49,510 nucleotides of DNA, taken from Candidatus Melainabacteria bacterium. Its GTDB lineage: Bacteria; Cyanobacteriota; Vampirovibrionia; 2-02-FULL-35-15. The notes beneath the pieces were generated by a model that was not told the DNA's origin, did not search any database, and saw only the letters and a program-made list of their open reading frames with translations. Position numbers and translations under genes: made by a program. The DNA is taken from the NCBI GenBank assembly GCA_023250205.1, contig JAHFBE010000004.1, forward strand, positions 4,359 through 53,868, read 5' to 3'. Shown here piece after piece: positions 12,669-48,133 of this stretch. How positions within the stretch are numbered: the first letter of the stretch is position 1; each line of letters opens with the position of its first letter.

Positions 12669-14639
12669 ATGTTTATATTAATAGAATACAATTTTTATTC
12701 AACTCCACCTGAAAATATTTCACTAGTAAAGTCTTCTGGTGATAATAATGAAAATAATTTAGATGATATTCTTGCAAAGAAATATGTGAAAGGTGATATT
12801 AATCAAAATGGTCAAATAGATGGTGATGATATTAAACTTTTCCTAAGCTATGTTACCGGTGAGCAAAAACCTGAAGATGCTGAAAGACTTAAAGCTGCAG
12901 ATTTTAATGGTGATGGTAAAGTTAGCGGGTTGGATTTTGGTGAATTTCAAAGCATTATTAATGCACATAAAATTGATAAAGGTACTTATTTAAAAGAGGG
13001 ATCTTTTCTCGGAACAGGTGGTATTCTTCCTGATGATGTTAGTGGAGTCAATAATTTAGATGATATAACTGGCGGAATATCTTTTGATTCAACTGATGGA
13101 CCACCACATCCAAACCAAGATATATCAAAAGGTCCACAGCAAGGAGGACCTCCTGGCGGACAACAAGGTGGACCTCCTGGTGCTAAGCCTCAAGGACCTA
13201 CAGGCGGAGCAAAACCGTTAAAGCCACTTGTGGAGAATCATTCAAATTATGATTCAGTTACACAGGGACTAATTGATGCTTTGCTTCAATCATTAGAAAA
13301 TTCTAATTATGCAGACATTAACTGGGCACAGGTAATGGAAACTATACAGCAAATTATAAATGGTTTAGGTGGCGGCGGCGGTGGACATGATCCTGTCGAT
13401 CCTGTCGATCCTGTCGATCCTGATGATCCTGATGATCCTGTAGATTTGGGACCTTATTTAAAAGGTGATGTTGATAATGACGGTGATATTGATAATGAAG
13501 ATTTGAAGTTAGCAAAACAAATTGGCATAGATCCAGAGTTTGATGTTACTGATCCTGCTTACGATGCTGCTGATATAAATGATGATGGTTCTGTAGATCC
13601 AGCAGATATTGCACTATTTAAGAAGCGTTTAAAAGGTCCTAAGAATTTTGACTTTACATATGATAAAAAATTTGATGAAGAGGATTTGAATGTACTTGAA
13701 GATTATATAGATGGCAAATTGTTGCTAACTGATGCAGAATTTAAAGCTGCAGATTCAAATGGTGATGAAAACGTAGATGCAGAAGATTTGAATATTTTAA
13801 AAAATCGTTCTGAAGAAAGACCTGTTGGCGATATAAATAATGACGGTGTAATGGATCAAAAAGATTTAGATATTCTTGAGCTTGCAATTAAGAAAAAATA
13901 TGATCTGACAAAAGAGGAAAAAACAGCTGCTGATTTGGATGGTAAAGGCGGGTTTACAAAAGCTGATATTGAATATTTTGAAAAGATATTAAAACCTCTT
14001 AAAAAAGGTGATCTTAATGGTGATGATAAGGTGGATGAAGCAGATTTGAGTCTAGCAAAAAACAGTGGGAAAGATAATCTCTTAACTAAAGAACAGCAAG
14101 ATGCTGCTGATTTGAATGATGATGATATATTTGATCAAAAAGATATTGAGTTGTTTGAAAGTAAATTTAAGTCTAAAGCAGTTGGAGATCTTGATGATAA
14201 TGGTATTGTTGATACTGCTGATCTTGCGCTTTTAATTAAAGCTAAAAATGATACTACAAGTCTAACATCATCTGAGATACAAACTATGGATATTAATCAA
14301 GATGGTGAAGTAAACGATAAAGATGTTAGCGCGATGGTTCAAAAATTTAACCCAAAAGTAAAAGGTAATGTAGATGAAACTCCATGGAAAGATAAAAATG
14401 ATAATTTGATCCAAGTAATTGATTCAAGTGACATAAATATGCTTTCAGACTTCTTGAGTGGAAACGTTGGACTTAGTTTAGAACAAATACAAGCATGTGA
14501 TATAGATGGAACTTTTGTAAATTATATTCAAAAGACCAGGGACAATTTATCTGACAGTGAAAAGACTAAACAAGACAATCACTATCTATATCTTTTTTCA
14601 AAATATGTAGAAGAGCTTCCAAGTCCTAATGTCACCTAA
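12669..14639 (+). CDS. Multi-dockerin / EF-hand repeat protein
   Basis: About seven dockerin-I-like paired modules (e.g. KGDINQNGQIDGDDIKLFLSYVTG...AADFNGDGKVSGLDFGEF), plus GPPGGQQGGPPG and (VDP)n linkers. Confidence 0.8.
   Translation: MFILIEYNFYSTPPENISLVKSSGDNNENNLDDILAKKYVKGDINQNGQIDGDDIKLFLSYVTGEQKPEDAERLKAADFNGDGKVSGLDFGEFQSIINAHKIDKGTYLKEGSFLGTGGILPDDVSGVNNLDDITGGISFDSTDGPPHPNQDISKGPQQGGPPGGQQGGPPGAKPQGPTGGAKPLKPLVENHSNYDSVTQGLIDALLQSLENSNYADINWAQVMETIQQIINGLGGGGGGHDPVDPVDPVDPDDPDDPVDLGPYLKGDVDNDGDIDNEDLKLAKQIGIDPEFDVTDPAYDAADINDDGSVDPADIALFKKRLKGPKNFDFTYDKKFDEEDLNVLEDYIDGKLLLTDAEFKAADSNGDENVDAEDLNILKNRSEERPVGDINNDGVMDQKDLDILELAIKKKYDLTKEEKTAADLDGKGGFTKADIEYFEKILKPLKKGDLNGDDKVDEADLSLAKNSGKDNLLTKEQQDAADLNDDDIFDQKDIELFESKFKSKAVGDLDDNGIVDTADLALLIKAKNDTTSLTSSEIQTMDINQDGEVNDKDVSAMVQKFNPKVKGNVDETPWKDKNDNLIQVIDSSDINMLSDFLSGNVGLSLEQIQACDIDGTFVNYIQKTRDNLSDSEKTKQDNHYLYLFSKYVEELPSPNVT
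13389..13442 (+). repeat. Short tandem repeat (GATCCTGTC/GATCCTGAT, 9 bp)
   Basis: gatcctgtc x3, gatcctgat x2, gatcctgta; encodes DPVDPVDPVDPDDPDDPVD. Confidence 0.9.
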
Positions 14640-21476: not shown

Positions 21477-21522
21477 TGTCATTGCGAGCCGAATAAAATG
21501 AGGTGTGGCAATCTCCTAACGC
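21477..21522. repeat. Partial REP-like element
   Basis: TGTCATTGCGAGCC...GTGGCAATCTCCTAACGC between convergent genes. Confidence 0.65.
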
Positions 21523-21567: not shown

Positions 21568-21933
21568 TTAGCTCTTGTTGGGTTCAGGCTTATCTTTGCA
21601 CATTTCTACGGTAGCAAGTTTGTTCTTTTTAATAGCTCTGCTTGCGCTTGTAGGAGCATCCCAGAGTATGGAGATAGGCCATAGAAGTAAATCTAACACT
21701 CCTAATCCAATCTGACCGGTATAAAAAGATCCTCCACCGGGAAGAAATGCAAAGGCTGCAGCGGCAGCTGGATCTTTGATTTTTATTTCTGGGCATCCAG
21801 CTTCTTTTGCTTTCATAAAATCTACATCTAGCTTGTCATCAAGATCATAAGCAAATGATCCACCAATACTTGAAATTAAAATCGATAGTGAAACTAAAAA
21901 ACATAATATTATTCGTAGCATTATTACCTCCAA
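21568..21933 (-). CDS. Small membrane/secreted protein (121 aa)
   Basis: N-terminal signal-like segment, then AFAFLPGGGSFYTGQIGLGVLDLLLWPISILWDAP (TM2-like hydrophobic segment). Confidence 0.7.
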   Translation of the reverse strand: MEVIMLRIILCFLVSLSILISSIGGSFAYDLDDKLDVDFMKAKEAGCPEIKIKDPAAAAAFAFLPGGGSFYTGQIGLGVLDLLLWPISILWDAPTSASRAIKKNKLATVEMCKDKPEPNKS

Positions 21934-21979: not shown

Positions 21980-22078
21980 CGTCATTGCGAGGAGCGTTAG
22001 CGACGAAGCAATCCCGAGCAATTTATGTAAACATAGATCTGGATTGCCACGCCTCGCTTTGCTCGGCTCTCAATGACA
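21980..22078. repeat. REP-like palindromic element
   Basis: CGTCATTGCGAGGAGCGTTAGCGACGAAGCAATC...GGATTGCCACGCC...CAATGACA; ends next to the stop codon of the 22081..23580 gene. Confidence 0.9.
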
Positions 22079-24275: not shown

Positions 24276-27200
24276 TTACTGTCCCAATTTATCTATTAAT
24301 ATTGCACTAGAAGCTTCACCAGGATTATCAAAATTTAATTGAGAATTTGGAAGTACAAATTGTAGCGGAAAGGTTTCGTTGGTAATTAGGTTGGTATTGA
24401 AAGTGTTAACAACTAAATCAATAAAGGCTTCAGCTCGATCCGGCTCAAGTATTCCTTTGCTAGATGGTTTTCCAGCTTCAAAAGTCCCAGAAGCATAAAG
24501 TCTTAAAGCTTCTGCAATTTCTGATACTGAAACGTTTATATTTGGTTGTAATGATAGTCTTGTTAGATAGGCACCTGCTCCTGTTGGATTTAAAATAGTT
24601 TGAATATCACCTTCTGGGCTGTTAAGGATTGTTCTTGACTGTATTACTTTATCTACAGTTGTGAATCTCCCATACTTTCTAAAAACCCCACCCCAGAAAT
24701 TACCTATTGGTGAAGGAAGATTTAATAGAGTCTTTTGAGGAACATTTGCAGTCATGCTGAAAGTGTTTTGTTCATTGAATTGCAAATGGATATTATATTG
24801 TCCATTTTGTATACAGCCAGTAAATATTCCTGGTTGTAATGGTATATGTGAAAATGGTTCAATAACTTTTAAGTTTGTATTAAATAATTCATTTGTAGCT
24901 GAAATACTTACCATTGTATTTGTTCTCTTAATATCTAAATTATTTAAATCTTTCCCTATGAAAAATCTTCTATCTATTATACCTATTACATTTGTACATG
25001 TAGTATCTGTCGTATCTGATTTTAACTGTGCATGTGAAAGAGTGAAATAAAGAACTAGCCCAAGCAGTCCTATAGCTGCTATATCTGGAGCACTCAAGGT
25101 TCCAGCACCTATAGCTGCTGCATTTGCTAAGCCATTAAGTAGAACGGAATTTGAAAGCCCAGAAGCATTTACTTGTGGACTTATTGTTCCGATTGTTCTT
25201 AAAGTGTTTGCTGAATTAATAAGTGAAACTATATAAGGAAGGTTTGTCTTAGTTGAAGTTGAAATATATTCTAAGTAGTTTGTTGATGATATTCCACAAG
25301 TTAAAGTACTACCAGTAATCTGTGCTTTAAGATTTGATTCTCTATTATCATCTTTTAGTACACATCGTAATTGATCTATCGTGTAAAGAAGTTCATACGT
25401 GGCTTCCTGTGTCTCTAAATCATAGCCATTGTTATTGTCTTCACTTAAAAGTTTTAGATCTTTTAGAAGCCGTTTAAAATCTTTTAAAGATATTTTGTCA
25501 TTAGAAGAGAAACTTAATCCTTTAACACCAAGAATAGGATCATCCGATATTGTAGCCGTTCCATTAGTTACAAATGGAAGATTAATAGTATCAGTTTCAT
25601 TGCTTGATTCTGTAAAGAAAGAGCTTTCACCAATTTTTAGTTCACATACATCACTCTCTCCACCAGAAGTCAGAGTAAATATTACTTCTGTATAAATACT
25701 CCATGCTTGAGGAAGAGTGAATGAGATTATTCCACTTTGAGCCCAGTCAGTTTTATCTTTAAATTCTACGGGAAGTGGAATTGATTTATCGATAGTGCCA
25801 TCAGGTTTCTTTCCATTAATTGAGACATATGCTGACTTTGTAGATTTGAGAGCATAGTTAAAATCTATACTTTGACTGATACTTGCAGCATTTGGCTCCA
25901 GATTACAGAAAGTTATCTGCACAGAAGGGTCGAAAATTGGCACCGTTGATACTGTTTTGAATTGACCATTAAGAATATTGAAATTAAATTTATTTTTATT
26001 TAATTTATCCTGTACGAAGTTTAAGAAATCATCACTTCTGTTTAATGTAACTAGTGCCTCTGTAGTTTCAGGAGGTAGATTTTCTATTTTTTTAGTTTTT
26101 GATTGTTGTCCTTTTGGAATAAGAACTGATGTATTAAATTCCCCGAGATTTCCAAGAATCATGCCACTTTCATCTTTAGGCTCTACCACTAATTCCAGAG
26201 GGAATCTCTTTCCTTTTGGTCCGTAACTCGGAATATTGTTTTTAATTGTTAGATTTAAAACTTTTGTATTCGTTTTTGAATTTGTTTTTAAAGCACCTTT
26301 TACTACTGGCTTGTCTAAGAGAATTAATTCTTGTGGCTCAGCATATGACTCAGTCGGAAATGTAGAAACTGAAGGAGATAAAGTAGTAATTTCATTGTAG
26401 AGAAAAATCGGACCAATGGCACTTAGGTTTTCAAAAGCATCTTTAAAATTGTTTTCTGTACTGAGATTGAAGTTTAAATTATATTCAAAGCTTACAGTGT
26501 CTTCATTCAGACTACTTGCCATAATTCCTTTAATGACTGAATCATTGTTATTACTAGAGGTAACGATTCTTATAACGTCATCAGAACCAAACCTAATTCC
26601 ATACTTTGCAAGATTTTTAATTTTATCTGTGCTTAATGCCTGTAAGTCAACAGGAAGTTTAGCCTTATCTAAGATAGATTTAATTAAAGTTTTTGAAGAT
26701 TGGATAACAGTGTATTCTTCCGGCTGAATAATCTCTACAGCAACTTCAGGATTTGACTTAATATCTTTGAAATTGGCAAGGTATGAAGACCAGCTATCAG
26801 TTAGATTCCCTGAATCAGGAGAAAAACTTATAGGAAGAGTAAGTGTATATGAAGAAGAATCTTTTGTTAGTTCTTTAGGTGTGTAACTAAAAGAACAATT
26901 TGCTGCTAGTTCTCTTGTGGGGGATAAAATATTTGGCTGATAATTACAGCTAACAGTTACATTATCTCTTTCTCCTGTAGGAGTTTGAATATATGCCTGC
27001 CCTAAACGTGGAAGATGGTCTTGATCTTTTATCGGAATAGAATCGTATAAGTTTAAATTAAATGTAATATTATTTAATTTATTCCAAAGTAAGTTCTGAG
27101 GTTTTAAAGCAGATATTTTCGCATTATAATCCCTTGTAATGTTAATAATGAAATTGTTCGTGAGCTGAGTTGAATAGTTTTCTAAAGTTGTACCAAAGTG

Positions 27201-30200
27201 ACTTCTTGAAGTGTCTGTAGAAGTGATTGTATGGGAAAAATTATACTGCCCAATAGTCCAGTATAAAGTAGGATCTGGAGAGTTTGCATTAATATCAAAT
27301 AGTTCATTTGATAAAGTTCTATTTAGTATGAAAGATTCATAGACATCATAAGTGTTGCTACTACATCCATCTATATCGCCCAAGGTGCCAGAGTTACTAA
27401 TTGTATTTGAGTTAATTGGTGGATATGCACCTTTACCATTCAATAGGATTTCTTTAGTTCCAAATTGTAATTTGGATAAATCATTGACTTGTAACTCAAA
27501 AGGTGTCTCACTATCACTTACAGGCAAATCATCATCGTCACAAATCTTGGACTTAATAACTAATTCAAACGGTTCACCTTGTTTGAAGTTATGAGGTTGA
27601 CCATCATTATAAATAATTTGGACATCGTTATTTGATACATTGCTTAGTAATTTGATTTGTCTGTTGTCATTTATATTAATTTCATCACTTGTAATATTCC
27701 CAGCTCTGTCTTTTACATTGATTTCTACTTTAGATAGAGGGGAATCTAAAGTATTTGGATCAATAACAATGCTAAAAGCTTTTTTACCATTATCAAGCTC
27801 CTCAATGTCATCTTCATACAATTCCTTGAATGAATTATTTTCATTTATTCTGTAGGAAATTGAGTGAAATTGTTTATCTTCAATAGTTCCAGAAATTAAG
27901 AGCTTATTCTCAGGAAGAATTAAATCATTTTCATTAGGTGACTCTATATTTAGTAGAGGTGCTTCTGTATCCACTATAATCTCTCTTTCTTCACTCATAA
28001 AGAGTTCATCGGAGGAATCTACAGTTTCAAAGTAATAAGTGTTTATACCTTCACTTAATGAGATCGTTTGATTTTCACTAGTTTGATCTAGTTCTGTCGT
28101 AGTTTCATTTTCGTCTTCATCTCTTACCTTGATTTTTAAGCTGTTGTTTGGATCATCAGGATTTGCAAAGGATGTTAGTACCATAAAGGTAACAATTGAT
28201 TGGTTTGTAAATGATACATCTGAGAGATCGTCTAATAGATAGACTCCACTTGTACCAGTTCCGGCTACTGTGATTTCTGGAACATTAAAGACAAATTTTC
28301 TTATAGACTCTTCTATATAAACTGTTAGCTTTGGTGTATATGTTCCTGGCGTAGTGTAAGTGTGAGTAAAAGTTTTTGTGAGTAACTGATCAAGGGTAAT
28401 ATTTTCTAATTCAATATGAGATTCTTCGCTAGAGTTTACCCTGAGCGAAGCGAATGGGCTCGCAATGACAGAGTCACCCCAATCAAGCTCATATTTTGAA
28501 ACTGTTGCATTAACTGCTTTTGCGGTTTCATTATCGATCATTAGATTTACAGTCAATGGGACTATTCCTGAAGCTTGCTCTGGTCTTACATCTAAGAGAA
28601 CAAAGTTTGGTTCAGCATTAAATGTAATTGTTCCAGCACTTGCTTCCCAAGTTTCTTTTTGTCCACTTCTAAACACCGTAGAAACTGTAAGTTTTGGTGT
28701 AACCGATTTCCTGTCTGTGTATGGCGAACCATTAAAAGATTTATTATTGTCAAAGTAATAGTGCGTAGGATTTGGAGAGGTGCAGTCATCTGGAAGAGAA
28801 TTTCCCTTACAGCTTTCATCCCCAAAATCCCATTTATATGTTTGTGACTGAACATGACCACCAAGAACTTTTACATCAGATTTGAATCTTACGGGGATTC
28901 CTGCAGTCCCACTGGGGATTACTTCGTCGCTATTGCTCCCTGCAATGACATTTGGATCGTAAACTTTTTTATCAGAAGGATTCGTCGTGGCAAATACTAT
29001 TACTCTTTGTGAAGGTTTTGTCAGTGTAACTGATTCTGTAGAAGCCGTATCCGTCAATCCGGCTTTGTCTTTTACAGTAAGTGTTGCAAAGTAACTTCCC
29101 GGAGTAAAGAGACTTCCTGAATAGAAACTCTTCCCATCTTCTGACACTTTTCCATCAATTGGCAGTGATACTAACTGTGAATCCTGATTAAATCTTAGCT
29201 CAAAGAGTTTCCAGTTATTTAACTTTGAGTCTACAAAATCAAGAGCACTTGAAAATCTTTGGTTTGGATCGTAGCTATCTAAATCTACAAAGGTAGTAAA
29301 TAATGGTGGTGTAGTAGTAAATGTATCTCCTGAAACTTTTGCTTTAGCTATTGGATTGTAGTTTGGATATATAAAAACTGTTGGTCCATTATATGTTCCT
29401 ATCTTTGTTTGAACACCATTTTCATTCCAGAATAAGTCTACCTGTGGATTTGCGATTTGTGGAGTAGTTAAAGATTTGTTTGTGTTTTGATAAGTGAAAG
29501 TATAGTTATCATTTGCTATAGCTAAGCTTTCTCTGCCATCTCCAGATTTGAAATTATATCTTAGATTTGAAGAGTATTCCTGACCCGTAGAAATTTGTAC
29601 TTTGTATTTTATGGAGTGTCCATCCTGAATTACTTTATTTCCCACCTGGACAAATCCTACATTGTCGGAAGAGTTCTCTTCAATTCCAAAAATAGTTCCT
29701 ACTGCTGGTTTTGGTGTAAAAGTTAATCTGTGTGAAGCAGGAATTAAAGTATCTGAATATTCACTCAAGATACTTCTTGCTGCTAAATATTTCAATGCTT
29801 CAATACTTGTAAACTCTTCGCCAATGGATGAGTTTCTTTGAACAGTAGCAATTACTTTACAATTTCCATTTTTTGATTGTAGGTTTAATGGAATTGAATC
29901 TTTAAAGAATGTATCCCCATTTGAATCTTTTACTCCATTTATCGTAGTAGTAGAAAAGTTATTTGAGTTATTTATAGCAGTAAGAAGTTTTCCATCAGGA
30001 TCAAATACTGCAATATAAGCTGTATATGTAGCGTTTGGATTGTTTCCTTTTACTTTTAGTTCTACATCAAAACTGTTTCCGGGGAATGGTTGTATCGGTG
30101 TAATTTTAAAGGAACTATCTACCAGTTTGAAATCATCTGTGACTGCAAGAGAAAGAATTGAAGAATCTTTTCCATTTCCATGGAGTTGTACTAGTTTTGC

Positions 30201-33200
30201 TCCAGGACTTGAGAATTTGTCTGGTATATAAACTATAATTTGATTTTTATTTACGGAGTTTTTAGTAATTATCTGATTATCAATGGTTACATTTGTATTT
30301 TGATCAAAATTATCTCCGTTAATTGTAAGTATCCTCTTATTTCCTTCCAGAGAAATGTTATTAGGGCTTATTGAATAAAGTTTTGGACCACTGTTGTTTG
30401 TAAATATCACATCATTTACATAAAGTAAGTCATTTGGATTTCCATTAAAACTTATTTTTAGTTCATGTAATCCGCTTGAAAGAGTTCTTGTATCCAGATT
30501 TTCCCAGGATAGAGTTTGACTTGTTTGTACAAAGCTTCTGCTAATAAGGTTTCCATCAATCCAGAAATCCACATAGTTCCAATCTGGAGTTCCTGATTTG
30601 TAGTGAGATAAATTGAGTGAGGTTTTCACATCATAAGTATTATCCAGGCAAAATGGAGTACTTACTGAACCTGAACCCTGAATAGTTGCAGAAGGTGAAC
30701 TTAAGAAAGTATTGTTTCCACTAAGTACTGTAGTAGAGTCACTTCCCCAGTATGTTTGCGGCAATGTTTTCTTTAAGTTACAGACATTGCTTTGATTTGC
30801 CTTTGCTGTGTAGTAAGAAATGTTTGATTGGGAGCCGTCAGAATTTAAAACCGATATTGATTTTCCTCCTAAATACTGAACGAGGTTAGCTGGTATTCTT
30901 ATGTAGATTGTATTTGCATCATTTGCAAATGGTGTAAGTAAGTATCCATCAAAATAAACTCGAGATGTTTCTCTAAAATTATTTCCGTTAATTCTTAAGT
31001 CAAATGCTCCTCGACCAGCAGTTCCTTCTGTTGGGAAAATTGAAGAGATTTGTGGCTGAACTGTTTTTGTAAATGTAAAATATCCGGATGTCCAGGTTCC
31101 TGAAGCTAATTCATTTCCAGAATTATCTGTTGGTCTAAATTCTACTTTTATCCTTGGATTTGTAGTTGTGCTTGTAAATGATATTCCAGCGCCTGCCCAC
31201 CATTGTATTGAACCTGCAAGCTTTGAATCTACGTAAACATTTGTCTTTGTCCATTTTGCAAAAGGAGTATTGGCAAGAGAACCTTTCCAGCCAAGTTCAA
31301 TGTATCCATCTCTTTCAGTAATAACATCCAGTGTTAATGAATTTGAGCTGCTTGGGCTAATTGTTACCCATGGATTTACTACATAGTTAAAGTTTGAGAT
31401 TTCAAACCCAGCAGTTTGTAGCTTTGTGATTTTTTGAGCAGAATTTGAAGCAGCTACACGGGTATTTAAAGAAGCTGCTTCAGTTTCTCCGCTCTTTTGT
31501 GGTGATTTTGTTTCACCAACAAAACCTCTTACAAAAAATCCTTGATTAATCAAATCTTGAATCTCCACGTCATTGCGAGGAGCCTCTAAAGGAGGCGACG
31601 TGGCAATCTCATAAGTGTTAGAACGCTCATGAGATTGCTTCGTCAGTTTTTCAAACTTCCTCGCAATGACATATGGGGTAAGTTCTTTTTTCTCCCCATA
31701 TTCCCTATTCCCTAAATCCCCAAATCCTTTTTCTACAAAATCACTTACAGCACTAGGTAAAGCAATTCTTTCTACTACCACACCAAGTTCATCTACATTT
31801 AAGCCAACATTAAACGTTATAGCAATTTCTTCATTTGTTTCTTGTTCTGCTGTTGAGCTGTTCCTTGCAATTTGATTTCCATTTGTATCTGTAGCTGATA
31901 GTTTTAATGTATATAATCCAGGAGGCAGATCTGCAGGAATGCTAATACTTTCTTCTAAGTATTGTTCATTTGTTATTGAGTTATCTTTGTTCTTACTTTC
32001 TAAATCAATTACTTTTTGCGTAATTATTTTTTCATCCAGCCCATATAACGTATAGCCAAAATTACTTAATCCAATATTATCTCTGACAAAACAGGACAGT
32101 CTAACTGCTCCACCAGGATTAACGGTCTTAGGCTCAATTGTTATTGGTCCAATTTCTGGTTTTTTGTTATCAGATGAAATGAATATATCAGTGACTTCTT
32201 TTATCATTGACTCAATTGCAGATTCAATTTCTTCTTTTGTATAAGTGTCATTCTGAGGAGCATCAGCGACGAAGAATCTCTTAACGTTAGTAGATTCTTC
32301 GCTATCGCTCAGAATGACATTATTTGAACGAAACAATGCTTCGTTGCTAACGCTCCTTGCAGTGGCATATTTAGCAATCTTTATAGAAGAAGCCTGTGCA
32401 AAGCCTACATTATTTTCATTATCTACGACAACTAAAGTTGGAGTAAAAGTACCTTCACTGTTATATGTATGCTTTGGTGAAATCTCTGTAGACTTTTCAC
32501 CATCACCAAAGTCCCATGTAAGAATTTGTAGTCCACCACCTGCTTTTGGATCATAACTTTCAGAAGCATCAAAATTTATCTCTAGTCCCGGTTCGCCAAT
32601 ATTTTTATCGCTTAGTATTTTAGCTATTGCAACAGGTGCTTGATCTGGTGTAATAGTATAAGTCTCCCCATAGAATCTAGTTTTTGTTCCATCTGATTTT
32701 TCTATTTCTAATATTGGTGTGTATTGTCCTGCTTTTGTAAAAGTATATTCAAATTCTTCATTTGTAGAGATTAGCTCATTATTCACTTCATCGGAAAGAT
32801 CAATCAAATTTCCATTTACATCCCATGTTCTAGCACTCCATATCCATTTGTATTGAAGAGGTGTATTAGGATTTTGCGGATCAAAGCTTCCAACAGCAGA
32901 TAGCTTTATCATTGCCTGACCAACAATACCGCTATCATTTCCTTCTAGCTTTGTTATTTGTCCGACTGGTGTATTATTTGCTCCAACAATAACATTTCCA
33001 ATATTTATTTTTTTAAGTCTGTTGTCAGGTGTAAACGCTGTTAATGATGCTAGATATACTCCGGGATCCTGATAGGTGTGTTTAATTATTCCTTGAGTAC
33101 TATCTATTATTTGAGAATTACCATCTCCAAAATCCAGCTTAATACTTACAGCTTTACCGTCATAATCCTGTGAACTGCTTCCATCAAAGGTAACTTCAAA

Positions 33201-34892
33201 AGGAGCATTTCCTGTCGTTTGATCTAACTTAGCATTTGCAAGTGGTTGTGGCTTTAAAACTATTGTTGAAATTGTTTTTGAGCTTTCTCCCCTGCGAGTA
33301 TCACTAACTGTAAGTTTTACATTATAGGTTCCTGAATCTTTGTATTCATGTTTTGGACTTACTTCGTTACTTGTTGTATTGTCACCAAAGTCCCAAGTAT
33401 ACGTAAGCTCTTCATTATCAGGATCATAAGTTCCATTACTTACAAATTGAACTTCACTGGTGAAAAACCCTTCCTTATTTTGTTTTAAAATACTTTCTTT
33501 TGGAACTGCTGCGATTTGAGTTATTGGTAAGTTGTTTGGTGGGAGTAGTGTAATTTTTGTAGAAGTGATGGTTGTCTTTGCTCCAAGGATATCGTTAACT
33601 ATAAGCTTTGGCTGATATTTACCTGGAATTGTGTATGTGTGAGATGGGTTTTGTTCAGTACTGGTTTGTCCATCACCAAATTCCCAATAGTAGGATATTT
33701 CATCATTCTCTTTATCACTAACATTTGCAGTAAATGTAATACTAAGTGGAACATCTCCCTTTGTTTCATTTAATATAAAGACTCCTTCGGGAGCAAAGTT
33801 CTTTTCTCTTATTTCGATTTCTTTTGTAATAGCAGAAGTTTTTCCATAAGCATTTACTACATTTAAACGGGCTATGTATTTCCCCGGTTTTTTATAAGTA
33901 TGAGATATTACGGGATCTGTAGAAGTATTCTGATTCTCTTCAGTTGAATTTTCTAAATCCCCCAAGTTCCAAGAATAACTAAGCGCTTGTCCAAAATATT
34001 TTGCTAGTAAATCCTCAGTAGTTCTTCCATCAAAAGTAATAATCTGTGGTGCTACTCCAATGCTTGGTGTTGCATTGATTTTTGCAATTGGAATTGGATT
34101 TACTACCATTACATTAAAGCCTTTGCTTACCCCACCTAAAGGAGGTGGATTTGCTACAAAGATTTCAAAATTATTTTCTTTATTTAAATAGTTTGCTGGA
34201 ATAGTGGTAATCAACTTATTTGGTGAAACATATTTGGTTTGGATTTTCAGTGTTCCTATTGAAGCAACTGAATCTTGTACAAAATTGTCACCTTCTAAAC
34301 TTACATCAATAGATCCTCCGTTTTGTGATATTGGTAAGAGGTTGGGAGATATAAGTCCAAGAAGAGGTATTCCATTAAACACTTTATATGAAACATTATC
34401 GCTGGTAAGTTTAAGAGCTTCACCAGTAAATGAAGTAAGAGAATAGCTTGCAGGGAGTGAGGTAAGTCTAATTGCTTCAGCAGTTTGTGATATAGAGTAG
34501 CTTACAGGATTAGAGGACAGTTGAATAGCAGATGCAAGGTCTATAGTGCTATAGCTTACAGGATTGGAAGAAAGCTGAATAGCGGATGCAAGATTTGTAA
34601 TATTAAAGCTTACTGGTAAAGAACTTGATTGAATTGCTGTTGGGGATAAAGAAGTATCAAAGCTTACTGGTTTGGACTGAACTATTGAAAGGTTAAAGTC
34701 ATTTGTTGTTTGGGCTTTAGAAGGCAAGAATGAAAACGGATCAAGAAATAGAAATTTCAAACACAGGAAAAGAAGAAATACTTTTCTAAACATGAAACTA
34801 TATTTCTTAAAGTATCTTGTTAAGAAATAAGCTGAAACTCCGAAGCGCTTTCCTCTTGTTATTATTATTTCAAGGTAGAAATGTCTTTTCAT
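24276..34892 (-). CDS. Giant surface/secreted protein with PKD and IPT/TIG domains (3538 aa)
   Basis: Multiple PKD motifs (YYWEFGDGQTSTEQNPSHTYTIPGKYQPKLIV; YTWDFGDNTTSNEVSPKHEYKDSGTYNVKLTV; LTWDFGDGEKSTEISPKHTYNSEGTFTPTLVV), IPT/TIG-like segments (ISSIFPTEGTAGRGAFDLRINGNNF), N-terminal hydrophobic segment FRKVFLLFLCLKFLFL. Confidence 0.9.
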   Translation of the reverse strand: MKRHFYLEIIITRGKRFGVSAYFLTRYFKKYSFMFRKVFLLFLCLKFLFLDPFSFLPSKAQTTNDFNLSIVQSKPVSFDTSLSPTAIQSSSLPVSFNITNLASAIQLSSNPVSYSTIDLASAIQLSSNPVSYSISQTAEAIRLTSLPASYSLTSFTGEALKLTSDNVSYKVFNGIPLLGLISPNLLPISQNGGSIDVSLEGDNFVQDSVASIGTLKIQTKYVSPNKLITTIPANYLNKENNFEIFVANPPPLGGVSKGFNVMVVNPIPIAKINATPSIGVAPQIITFDGRTTEDLLAKYFGQALSYSWNLGDLENSTEENQNTSTDPVISHTYKKPGKYIARLNVVNAYGKTSAITKEIEIREKNFAPEGVFILNETKGDVPLSITFTANVSDKENDEISYYWEFGDGQTSTEQNPSHTYTIPGKYQPKLIVNDILGAKTTITSTKITLLPPNNLPITQIAAVPKESILKQNKEGFFTSEVQFVSNGTYDPDNEELTYTWDFGDNTTSNEVSPKHEYKDSGTYNVKLTVSDTRRGESSKTISTIVLKPQPLANAKLDQTTGNAPFEVTFDGSSSQDYDGKAVSIKLDFGDGNSQIIDSTQGIIKHTYQDPGVYLASLTAFTPDNRLKKINIGNVIVGANNTPVGQITKLEGNDSGIVGQAMIKLSAVGSFDPQNPNTPLQYKWIWSARTWDVNGNLIDLSDEVNNELISTNEEFEYTFTKAGQYTPILEIEKSDGTKTRFYGETYTITPDQAPVAIAKILSDKNIGEPGLEINFDASESYDPKAGGGLQILTWDFGDGEKSTEISPKHTYNSEGTFTPTLVVVDNENNVGFAQASSIKIAKYATARSVSNEALFRSNNVILSDSEESTNVKRFFVADAPQNDTYTKEEIESAIESMIKEVTDIFISSDNKKPEIGPITIEPKTVNPGGAVRLSCFVRDNIGLSNFGYTLYGLDEKIITQKVIDLESKNKDNSITNEQYLEESISIPADLPPGLYTLKLSATDTNGNQIARNSSTAEQETNEEIAITFNVGLNVDELGVVVERIALPSAVSDFVEKGFGDLGNREYGEKKELTPYVIARKFEKLTKQSHERSNTYEIATSPPLEAPRNDVEIQDLINQGFFVRGFVGETKSPQKSGETEAASLNTRVAASNSAQKITKLQTAGFEISNFNYVVNPWVTISPSSSNSLTLDVITERDGYIELGWKGSLANTPFAKWTKTNVYVDSKLAGSIQWWAGAGISFTSTTTNPRIKVEFRPTDNSGNELASGTWTSGYFTFTKTVQPQISSIFPTEGTAGRGAFDLRINGNNFRETSRVYFDGYLLTPFANDANTIYIRIPANLVQYLGGKSISVLNSDGSQSNISYYTAKANQSNVCNLKKTLPQTYWGSDSTTVLSGNNTFLSSPSATIQGSGSVSTPFCLDNTYDVKTSLNLSHYKSGTPDWNYVDFWIDGNLISRSFVQTSQTLSWENLDTRTLSSGLHELKISFNGNPNDLLYVNDVIFTNNSGPKLYSISPNNISLEGNKRILTINGDNFDQNTNVTIDNQIITKNSVNKNQIIVYIPDKFSSPGAKLVQLHGNGKDSSILSLAVTDDFKLVDSSFKITPIQPFPGNSFDVELKVKGNNPNATYTAYIAVFDPDGKLLTAINNSNNFSTTTINGVKDSNGDTFFKDSIPLNLQSKNGNCKVIATVQRNSSIGEEFTSIEALKYLAARSILSEYSDTLIPASHRLTFTPKPAVGTIFGIEENSSDNVGFVQVGNKVIQDGHSIKYKVQISTGQEYSSNLRYNFKSGDGRESLAIANDNYTFTYQNTNKSLTTPQIANPQVDLFWNENGVQTKIGTYNGPTVFIYPNYNPIAKAKVSGDTFTTTPPLFTTFVDLDSYDPNQRFSSALDFVDSKLNNWKLFELRFNQDSQLVSLPIDGKVSEDGKSFYSGSLFTPGSYFATLTVKDKAGLTDTASTESVTLTKPSQRVIVFATTNPSDKKVYDPNVIAGSNSDEVIPSGTAGIPVRFKSDVKVLGGHVQSQTYKWDFGDESCKGNSLPDDCTSPNPTHYYFDNNKSFNGSPYTDRKSVTPKLTVSTVFRSGQKETWEASAGTITFNAEPNFVLLDVRPEQASGIVPLTVNLMIDNETAKAVNATVSKYELDWGDSVIASPFASLRVNSSEESHIELENITLDQLLTKTFTHTYTTPGTYTPKLTVYIEESIRKFVFNVPEITVAGTGTSGVYLLDDLSDVSFTNQSIVTFMVLTSFANPDDPNNSLKIKVRDEDENETTTELDQTSENQTISLSEGINTYYFETVDSSDELFMSEEREIIVDTEAPLLNIESPNENDLILPENKLLISGTIEDKQFHSISYRINENNSFKELYEDDIEELDNGKKAFSIVIDPNTLDSPLSKVEINVKDRAGNITSDEININDNRQIKLLSNVSNNDVQIIYNDGQPHNFKQGEPFELVIKSKICDDDDLPVSDSETPFELQVNDLSKLQFGTKEILLNGKGAYPPINSNTISNSGTLGDIDGCSSNTYDVYESFILNRTLSNELFDINANSPDPTLYWTIGQYNFSHTITSTDTSRSHFGTTLENYSTQLTNNFIINITRDYNAKISALKPQNLLWNKLNNITFNLNLYDSIPIKDQDHLPRLGQAYIQTPTGERDNVTVSCNYQPNILSPTRELAANCSFSYTPKELTKDSSSYTLTLPISFSPDSGNLTDSWSSYLANFKDIKSNPEVAVEIIQPEEYTVIQSSKTLIKSILDKAKLPVDLQALSTDKIKNLAKYGIRFGSDDVIRIVTSSNNNDSVIKGIMASSLNEDTVSFEYNLNFNLSTENNFKDAFENLSAIGPIFLYNEITTLSPSVSTFPTESYAEPQELILLDKPVVKGALKTNSKTNTKVLNLTIKNNIPSYGPKGKRFPLELVVEPKDESGMILGNLGEFNTSVLIPKGQQSKTKKIENLPPETTEALVTLNRSDDFLNFVQDKLNKNKFNFNILNGQFKTVSTVPIFDPSVQITFCNLEPNAASISQSIDFNYALKSTKSAYVSINGKKPDGTIDKSIPLPVEFKDKTDWAQSGIISFTLPQAWSIYTEVIFTLTSGGESDVCELKIGESSFFTESSNETDTINLPFVTNGTATISDDPILGVKGLSFSSNDKISLKDFKRLLKDLKLLSEDNNNGYDLETQEATYELLYTIDQLRCVLKDDNRESNLKAQITGSTLTCGISSTNYLEYISTSTKTNLPYIVSLINSANTLRTIGTISPQVNASGLSNSVLLNGLANAAAIGAGTLSAPDIAAIGLLGLVLYFTLSHAQLKSDTTDTTCTNVIGIIDRRFFIGKDLNNLDIKRTNTMVSISATNELFNTNLKVIEPFSHIPLQPGIFTGCIQNGQYNIHLQFNEQNTFSMTANVPQKTLLNLPSPIGNFWGGVFRKYGRFTTVDKVIQSRTILNSPEGDIQTILNPTGAGAYLTRLSLQPNINVSVSEIAEALRLYASGTFEAGKPSSKGILEPDRAEAFIDLVVNTFNTNLITNETFPLQFVLPNSQLNFDNPGEASSAILIDKLGQ
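28421..28470. repeat. Partial REP-like element inside giant CDS
   Basis: gattcttcgctagagtttaccctgagcgaagcgaatgggctcgcaatgac; encodes VIASPFASLRVNSSEES. Confidence 0.7.
28890..28950. repeat. Partial REP-like element inside giant CDS
   Basis: ggggattacttcgtcgctattgctccctgcaatgac; encodes VIAGSNSDEVIPSGTAGIP. Confidence 0.6.
31568..31670. repeat. Complete REP-like palindromic element inside giant CDS
   Basis: CGTCATTGCGAGGAGCC...GACGTGGCAATCTCATAAG...CATGAGATTGCTTCGTC...CTCGCAATGAC; same structure as 489-587. Confidence 0.9.
32246..32319. repeat. Complete palindromic element (GTCATTCTGAG variant) inside giant CDS
   Basis: TGTCATTCTGAGGAGC..GACGAAGAATC...GATTCTTCGC..GCTCAGAATGACA; encodes VILSDSEESTNVKRFFVADAPQND. 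Confidence 0.9.
32338..32367. repeat. Degenerate REP-like half-element inside giant CDS
   Basis: gcttcgttgctaacgctccttgcagtggca; compare gcttcgtcgctaacgctcctcgcaatgac (reverse complement of 21980 element). Confidence 0.65.
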
Positions 34893-37517: not shown

Positions 37518-37553
37518 GTGTGTGAAAACAAAAATTGTAAAATAAAAATTATT

Positions 37554-38102
37554 ATGAAATATAATCCTGAAATTCATCATCGCAGATCAATTCGATTGAA
37601 AAATTATGATTATTCACAAAATGGTTATTATTTTGTCACAATTTGTACGCAAAACAGGCAATGTTATTTTGTGCAAGAATGTGTCATAAAAATGATAGAA
37701 AAATGGTGGTATGAATTGCCAAATAAATTTTCAAATGTTCAAACAGATGAATCTATTGTAATGCCGGATCATTTCCATGGAATTATTGTGATTACCGATT
37801 CCGTAGGGGCAGACCCGTGTGTCTGCCCAAATATAAAATGGGACAAACACATTGGTTTGGAAACATCGGGCAAACACATTGGTTTGCCCCTACAATCAAT
37901 TGTTCAATGGTTTAAAACAATGACCACAAATGAATATATTAGAAACGTGAAAAATCTAAAATGGAAACCATTTGATAGAAAATTGTGGCAACGTAATTAT
38001 TATGAACATATTGTTCGGGATGAAAAAGAATTATATAGAATCAGGCAATATATTAAAAACAACCCAATAGAATATTTGCGTAAGAATAAAGATGATATGT
38101 GA
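37554..38102 (+). mobile_element. REP-associated tyrosine transposase (RAYT, Y1_Tnp/IS200-like)
   Basis: NGYYFVTICTQNRQCYF, HUH-like MPDHFHGIIVI, C-terminal RNYYEHIVRDEKELYRIRQYIKNNP. ATG at 37554 preferred to the track's GTG at 37518. Confidence 0.9.
37803..37893. repeat. Palindromic element within the RAYT CDS (GTAGGGGCA...TGCCCCTAC)
   Basis: Two hairpins (GGGCAGAC-ccgtgt-GTCTGCCC; GGGCAAA...TTTGCCC) inside terminal inverted repeats, plus a 27-bp-period direct repeat of CAAACACATTGGTTTG. Confidence 0.85.
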
Positions 38103-48005: not shown

Positions 48006-48133
48006 TGTCATTGCGAGCGAAGCGAAGCAATCTTATACCAAAGTAAATGTAAATAAGACCTCTTTAAGGCATTGATATTATGCGATAGCTGCTGTTTAAG
48101 ATTGCTTTGTCACTATCGCTCCTCGCAATGACG
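48006..48133. repeat. REP-like palindromic element
   Basis: TGTCATTGCGAGCGAAGCGAAGCAATC...GATTGCTTTGTCACTATCGCTCCTCGCAATGACG. Confidence 0.9.

Follow-up and report, generated by a model that had tools for sequence, protein, structure and literature searches.

The window analysed here is a stretch of 49,510 nucleotides from the draft genome of a Candidatus Melainabacteria bacterium (G000). On its minus strand, positions 24276-34892 hold a giant gene encoding a secreted-type protein of 3538 aa with at least five PKD domains, TIG/IPT domains and Ig-like repeats. The reading frame is open across all 3538 codons, with no stop and no frameshift, as the initial annotation had stated, and long orthologs are present in 8 of the 10 family members searched. 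Near the N-terminus the protein carries a tandem repeat of 54 nt (18 aa; 34499-34613). Elsewhere in the window, positions 12669-14639 on the plus strand encode a protein of 656 aa that contains about six stretches of dockerin type I, which are unusual outside cellulosome and surface-protein systems.

Five copies of a palindromic element lie in the giant gene, two of them complete and three partial, in agreement with the at least five copies or fragments first noted. Following the reading frame, these are a decayed half-element, GCCACTGCAAGGAGCGTTAGCAACGAAGCATTG (32334-32366, codons 843-853, translated ATARSVSNEAL), a complete head-to-head dimer of 72 nt of the GTCATTCTGAG subtype (32247-32318, codons 859-882), a second complete head-to-head dimer of 102 nt, VIARKFEKLTKQSHERSNTYEIATSPPLEAPRND (31569-31670, codons 1075-1108), a half-element translated VIAGSNSDEVI (28917-28949, codons 1982-1992) and a half-element whose tip holds a nested hairpin insert, VIASPFASLRVNSSEES (28420-28469, codons 2142-2158). 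All five lie on the minus strand and are read in phase 0. On the coding strand the hexamer GTCATT marks the element starts at codons 859, 1075, 1982 and 2142, each time read GTC-ATT, and the decayed copy at codon 843 agrees, so the shared phase originally described for the five copies holds. The same hexamer occurs once more at codon 2786, where it does not belong to an element. The half-elements at codons 843 and 1982 differ from an element consensus at 6 and 3 of 33 positions respectively; for comparison, the reversed background of the 350-kb sample described below contains no stretch within 9 mismatches. Both complete copies fold far better than their shuffled counterparts (z = -10.1 and -6.2), and the dimer at codons 1075-1108, which is absent from the orthologs, is predicted to fold as a four-way junction.

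Outside genes, the window contains complete dimers at 490-586 (our reference copy), 21981-22077 and 48007-48132 (with a long spacer), none with an assigned strand, and a half-element at 21478-21513 on the plus strand. Allowing up to 2 mismatches, the end motif matches the window 15 times compared to 6 ± 2 expected, and the window has no Rfam match to a known RNA family. Across the 2.08-Mb draft genome the exact 12-mer GTCATTGCGAGG occurs 94 times forward and 94 times reverse, while the reversed pattern does not occur at all. We then worked with a sample of about 350 kb, consisting of stretches around element sites with the window included; this sample represents about 17 % of the genome and was picked by element location. 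It contains 204 half-elements, compared to none in the reversed control, and these make up 90 inverted dimers and 24 single halves, a total of 114 copies. Head-to-head dimers with their tags outside therefore predominate.

Each half-element has the form (C/T)GTC-ATTGC...GCAATC with the tag pointing outward. The stems begin with complementary A and T (ATTGC...GCAAT or ATTCT...AGAAT). T or C precedes GTC at the left end of 87 of the 90 dimers, and A or G follows GAC at 89 of the 90 right ends. Complete dimers are predicted to form a four-way junction composed of an outer stem, two tip hairpins and a central stem. The outer stem is about 5 bp in short copies, and the tips are mostly 12-23 nt with stems of their own, although nested palindromes extend some to about 60 nt. 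Tip sequence is highly variable (165 distinct among 214), with a self-complementarity of 0.203 pairs per base compared to 0.136 in chimeric tips.

CGTC REPs are defined by an unpaired CGTC tag (or TGTC/CCTC) at one end and a stem that starts with A/T, HH denoting dimers with the tags outside (PMC3733652). By these definitions the element consists of two CGTC-type REPs joined head to head. It does not have the 8-9 bp stem and 4-5 nt loop of the published families CGTC-1 to CGTC-4, and we therefore place it in the CGTC superfamily and not in any one family.

One explanation for five copies in one gene and one phase is that a copy multiplied by duplication within the giant gene and carried its phase along, as the initial annotation had proposed; the PKD domains and the 54-nt tandem repeat are internal repeats of the same gene. 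Pairwise comparison refutes this: the in-gene copies score 10-20 against one another and 42-63 against copies elsewhere in the genome. They also differ from one another in subtype and spacer, and the corresponding sites in relatives are empty or hold unrelated copies. We therefore reject within-gene duplication.

The length and repeat content of the frame might also suggest a decaying pseudogene riddled with repeats, an untranslated frame being one outcome that would have undermined the original proposal. We addressed this by comparing the gene with its relatives codon position by codon position. In each segment between and after the copies the third position is the most divergent; per-segment values at positions 1/2/3 against the G001 ortholog range from 0.19/0.14/0.46 to 0.48/0.41/0.57 (for example 0.26/0.21/0.48). 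The giant-gene frame has thus been kept through every copy, which indicates that the copies are probably translated as part of the protein and that purifying selection acts on the gene downstream of them. Together with 3538 codons free of stops and frameshifts and with intact long orthologs in relatives, this leaves the pseudogene reading next to no probability.

The giant gene is only one of many hosts. Counting a copy as intragenic when at least 40 codons of the ORF lie on either side of it, 27 of the 114 sampled copies (23 dimers, 4 halves) are read from the 5' tag inside an ORF, and one 3' half is intragenic as well; about a quarter of the sampled copies are thus intragenic and about three quarters lie outside genes. 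NCBIfam assigns 18 of the 20 tested host ORFs to named families. These include LigA, ValS, HemC, RecF, MetH, PurL, MtnA and PrmC (the last two with two dimers each), as well as MtnB, ThiL, RibE, a UbiD-family decarboxylase and TrmL-type, MurT-like and PabB/TrpE-type proteins; a CCA-transferase-like protein also carries a copy. In solved homologs of LigA, ValS, HemC and RecF the insert is missing, and the alignments are clean until they break at it (residues 227|262, 475|515, 111|140 and 234|268).

We found no clearly disrupted gene in the sample. For only 6 of the 86 non-intragenic copies does an ORF of at least 100 codons run into the element and end there. Two of these 6 are followed by long reading frames, which seem to be distinct neighbouring genes that start from an ATG of their own, the homology check having covered part of the cases. 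A short selfish palindrome is inserted dozens of times into working protein genes without breaking them. For annotators, the VIARS..KQS and EIAS..RND segments of Melainabacteria proteins should be treated as element-derived and not as domains.

We propose, with a probability of about 85 %, that non-autonomous CGTC-type REP dimers are scattered through this Melainabacterium and its family, that they insert frequently, and that the copies seen in genes are the survivors, in stop-free, in-frame loops with phases limited by stops and translated as extra loops. The element would consist of two inverted palindromes of about 25-50 nt with tags outward and a spacer between them. Insertion into genes is probably frequent, and survivorship would leave only copies that sit in surface loops or in linkers between domains, preserve the frame and contain no stop, their peptides being translated as additional loops. 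Loop tolerance would be the main filter, and surviving insertions may be neutral.

The intragenic dimers of the sample comprise 19 in phase 0, 3 in phase 2 and 1 in phase 1, and the intragenic 5' halves 3 in phase 0 and 1 in phase 1, the phase-1 half sitting inside the matched part of the PabB/TrpE-type enzyme. Constant phase is therefore not a rule, and the G003 ortholog of the giant gene even carries a phase-2 dimer in the same linker. The original proposal regarded copies in all phases combined with many disrupted genes as evidence against it; the other phases do occur, while no disrupted genes were found. It had also called for a genome-wide count with phases tabulated, and we provide the count for the whole genome and the 19:3:1 phase distribution for the 350-kb sample only.

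Stop codons account for much of the bias. In each phase the terminal CAATGAC puts a TGA in frame for one class of lengths; the tolerated classes (mod 3) are 0 and 2 in phase 0, 1 and 2 in phase 2, and 0 and 1 in phase 1. Observed intragenic lengths are 0 or 2 mod 3 and never 1. Phase 0 is the phase most often open among existing copies, which would lead to mostly phase-0 intragenic copies, including all five in the giant gene. From stop-free, length-compatible frames of the non-intragenic dimers we expect 55-57 % in phase 0. With an expectation of about 55 %, five out of five in the giant gene has a chance of about 5 % and is not remarkable, and their shared phase results mainly from only some phases being stop-free. 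Selection for the stop-free frame, as initially suggested, explains why phase 0 is favoured but falls short of the 19 out of 23 observed (P about 0.005-0.01). This excess is real but modest, and may have a cause beyond stop avoidance. Preference for the most hydrophilic peptide is not supported as that cause, the mean hydropathy being -0.03 in phase 0 compared to -0.64 in phase 2.

Alternatively, the elements may have been domesticated, selection having kept them as useful linkers or loops and favoured phase 0 for the peptide it encodes. The phase-0 excess over openness would fit, as would the recurrent filling of the same loops in several species. Nevertheless the hosts are unrelated enzymes whose solved homologs do without the loop, sites are empty within the genus, some in-gene copies have decayed and about three quarters of all copies lie outside genes. 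We regard domestication as improbable compared to the survival of tolerated insertions.

Comparison with element-free orthologs, another check called for at the outset, yields empty sites. The LigA site is filled in G000, G001, G003 and G009 and empty in G002. For ValS, five species were compared and only G000 and G002 have the element, the site being empty in G001, G003 and G009. The UbiD site is filled in G000 and G001 only, and MtnA site 1 is empty in G002 and G003. In the giant gene, site A (codons 843-882) holds the 72-nt CTGAG-type dimer in phase 0 in G000, a longer GCGAG-type dimer in phase 2, read CGT-CAT-TGC, in G003, and no recognisable element in G001, G002 and G009. The codon-1982 site has a different half in G001 (VILSDSEES), and the codon-2142 site has a half without the nested tip in G002 (VIASEAQQS). 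MtnA site 2 contains CGTC dimers in G000 and G003 and 28-bp GTAG-type palindromes in G001 and G002.

It is conceivable that copies at the same site in different species descend from one ancient insertion and have since diverged. One element is evidently common to G000 and G001 in UbiD, to G000 and G002 in ValS, to G000 and G003 at MtnA site 2 and to G001 and G003 in LigA, and tip changes with compensating indels could shift the phase, as at MtnA site 1. A single insertion followed by divergence accounts poorly for the two dimers of site A, which differ in subtype, length and phase, or for CGTC dimers in two species and GTAG palindromes in two others at MtnA site 2. Furthermore, G000, G001 and G002 are nearly equidistant, and the shared copies group the species inconsistently. 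No single tree accounts for the filled sites, which require repeated insertion, precise loss or interspecies exchange. As a general account we find a single ancient insertion rather unlikely. For some loops at least, the data favour repeated hits, and in others a common origin is likely.

Going further, we tentatively hypothesize that certain loops are true hotspots hit independently by CGTC dimers (in different phases) and by GTAG palindromes, that elements grow by nested palindromes in their hairpin tips, and that there is a preferred register beyond stop avoidance; we think this somewhat less than an even chance. If so, layers of selfish DNA would recurrently rebuild protein loops. At individual sites, MtnA site 2 among them, a dimer may have inserted into the centre of an existing palindrome. 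As a genome-wide habit this was rejected, since flank complementarity beyond the tag averages 6.26 compared to 5.98 in shuffles, with no strong cases.

The best-known in-frame selfish palindromes are those of Rickettsia and Wolbachia. The Rickettsia parallel drawn initially is borne out: Di Nocera et al. 2013 equate RPE-6 of Rickettsia conorii with CGTC-1 and RPE-4 with CGTC-4 (PMC3733652), so that the parallel is likely a family relationship, the equivalence resting on that paper for R. conorii. The phenomenon described here is that of the Rickettsia palindromic elements, most closely RPE-4 and RPE-6. Our element shares with CGTC REPs the outward (C/T)GTC tags, the A-T/T-A stem start, the predominance of head-to-head dimers and the in-frame copies within repair, tRNA and biosynthesis genes. 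It differs in that most halves replace the 4-5 nt loop by a tip of 12-23 nt that is variable and self-complementary, and in its host, a Melainabacterium of the Cyanobacteriota lineage. The only phyla for which the 2013 survey records CGTC REPs are Proteobacteria, Chlorobi, Bacteroidetes, Spirochaetes and Thermotogae (PMC3733652), and in the literature searched we found no earlier report of the GTCATTGCGAG motif or of palindromic repeats in Melainabacteria. Judged by the literature found, the host lineage is new for this kind of element.

In Rickettsia japonica, different RPE types occur at the same loci, and the choice between hotspot and common origin was left open, a common origin of same-site copies being suggested for RPE-4/6/7 (PMC3767692). 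As with RPE-4, RPE-6 and RPE-7, we find different element types at the same place in orthologs and at solvent-exposed sites; here, in contrast, the empty sites, the different phases at one site and the presence of both CGTC and GTAG elements in a single loop speak for repeated hits in at least some cases. RPE-1 to RPE-3 are treated as having a separate origin from RPE-4/6/7 (PMC3767692). As far as the account of Ogata et al. in PMC2229807 goes, they too are selfish palindromes in frame in functional proteins, but are longer (105-146 bp) and Rickettsia-specific. Two points are new here: hairpin tips that vary and yet are self-complementary, and individual protein loops that have been hit by more than one kind of element, GTAG-type palindromes included. 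With several species of a distant lineage and mostly housekeeping hosts, one insertion versus hotspots becomes testable by comparison, as does the question of how enzymes keep working when a selfish element adds loops to them.

How the elements move may involve the intact Y1/RAYT-like transposase gene at 37518-38102 on the plus strand, with HFH and C-terminal YIKNNP motifs, the sole gene of this kind found in the G000 genome. This genome, in which the gene is intact, has the most element copies among the genomes searched, and homologs near the giant gene carry in-frame stops in G001 (L128, two TGA) and G009 (L129, one TAA). CGTC REPs are described as having no transposase gene flanked by the elements; here RAYT/Y1 loci mostly have no element within about 1.5 kb, and a few have one on one side. 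In other families of the class the end motif is found 47 (G037), 100 (G042) and 66 (G047) times, and the window's RAYT-like protein has no detectable homolog in these three genomes. At 37803-37893 the two conserved halves of the ORF are separated by two inverted GTAG-type palindromes (GTAGGGGCAGACCCGTG...GGTTTGCCCCTAC) that keep the frame. The gene is a candidate mobiliser only, because it is not flanked by CGTC elements, several element-rich relatives in the class lack a detectable homolog and the GTAG pair interrupts it. A 121-aa ORF between elements at 21568-21933 was considered as a transposase and rejected, having no Pfam match.

The genome and its relatives resemble GTAG REP/REPIN and RAYT systems in carrying palindromes of about 28 bp together with a RAYT-like gene, whereas the element studied here is CGTC-tagged and does not adjoin the RAYT gene. 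The hemC gene of G001 (L171) has a 28-bp GTAG-tagged palindrome at the loop where G000 has a CGTC dimer. In ValS and LigA the tips are expanded in one species compared to another with the frame kept, and in-frame nested palindromic inserts of about 24-30 nt distinguish same-site or orthologous tips in valS (G000 and G002), in ligA (G003 and G001) and in the copy at 28420-28469.
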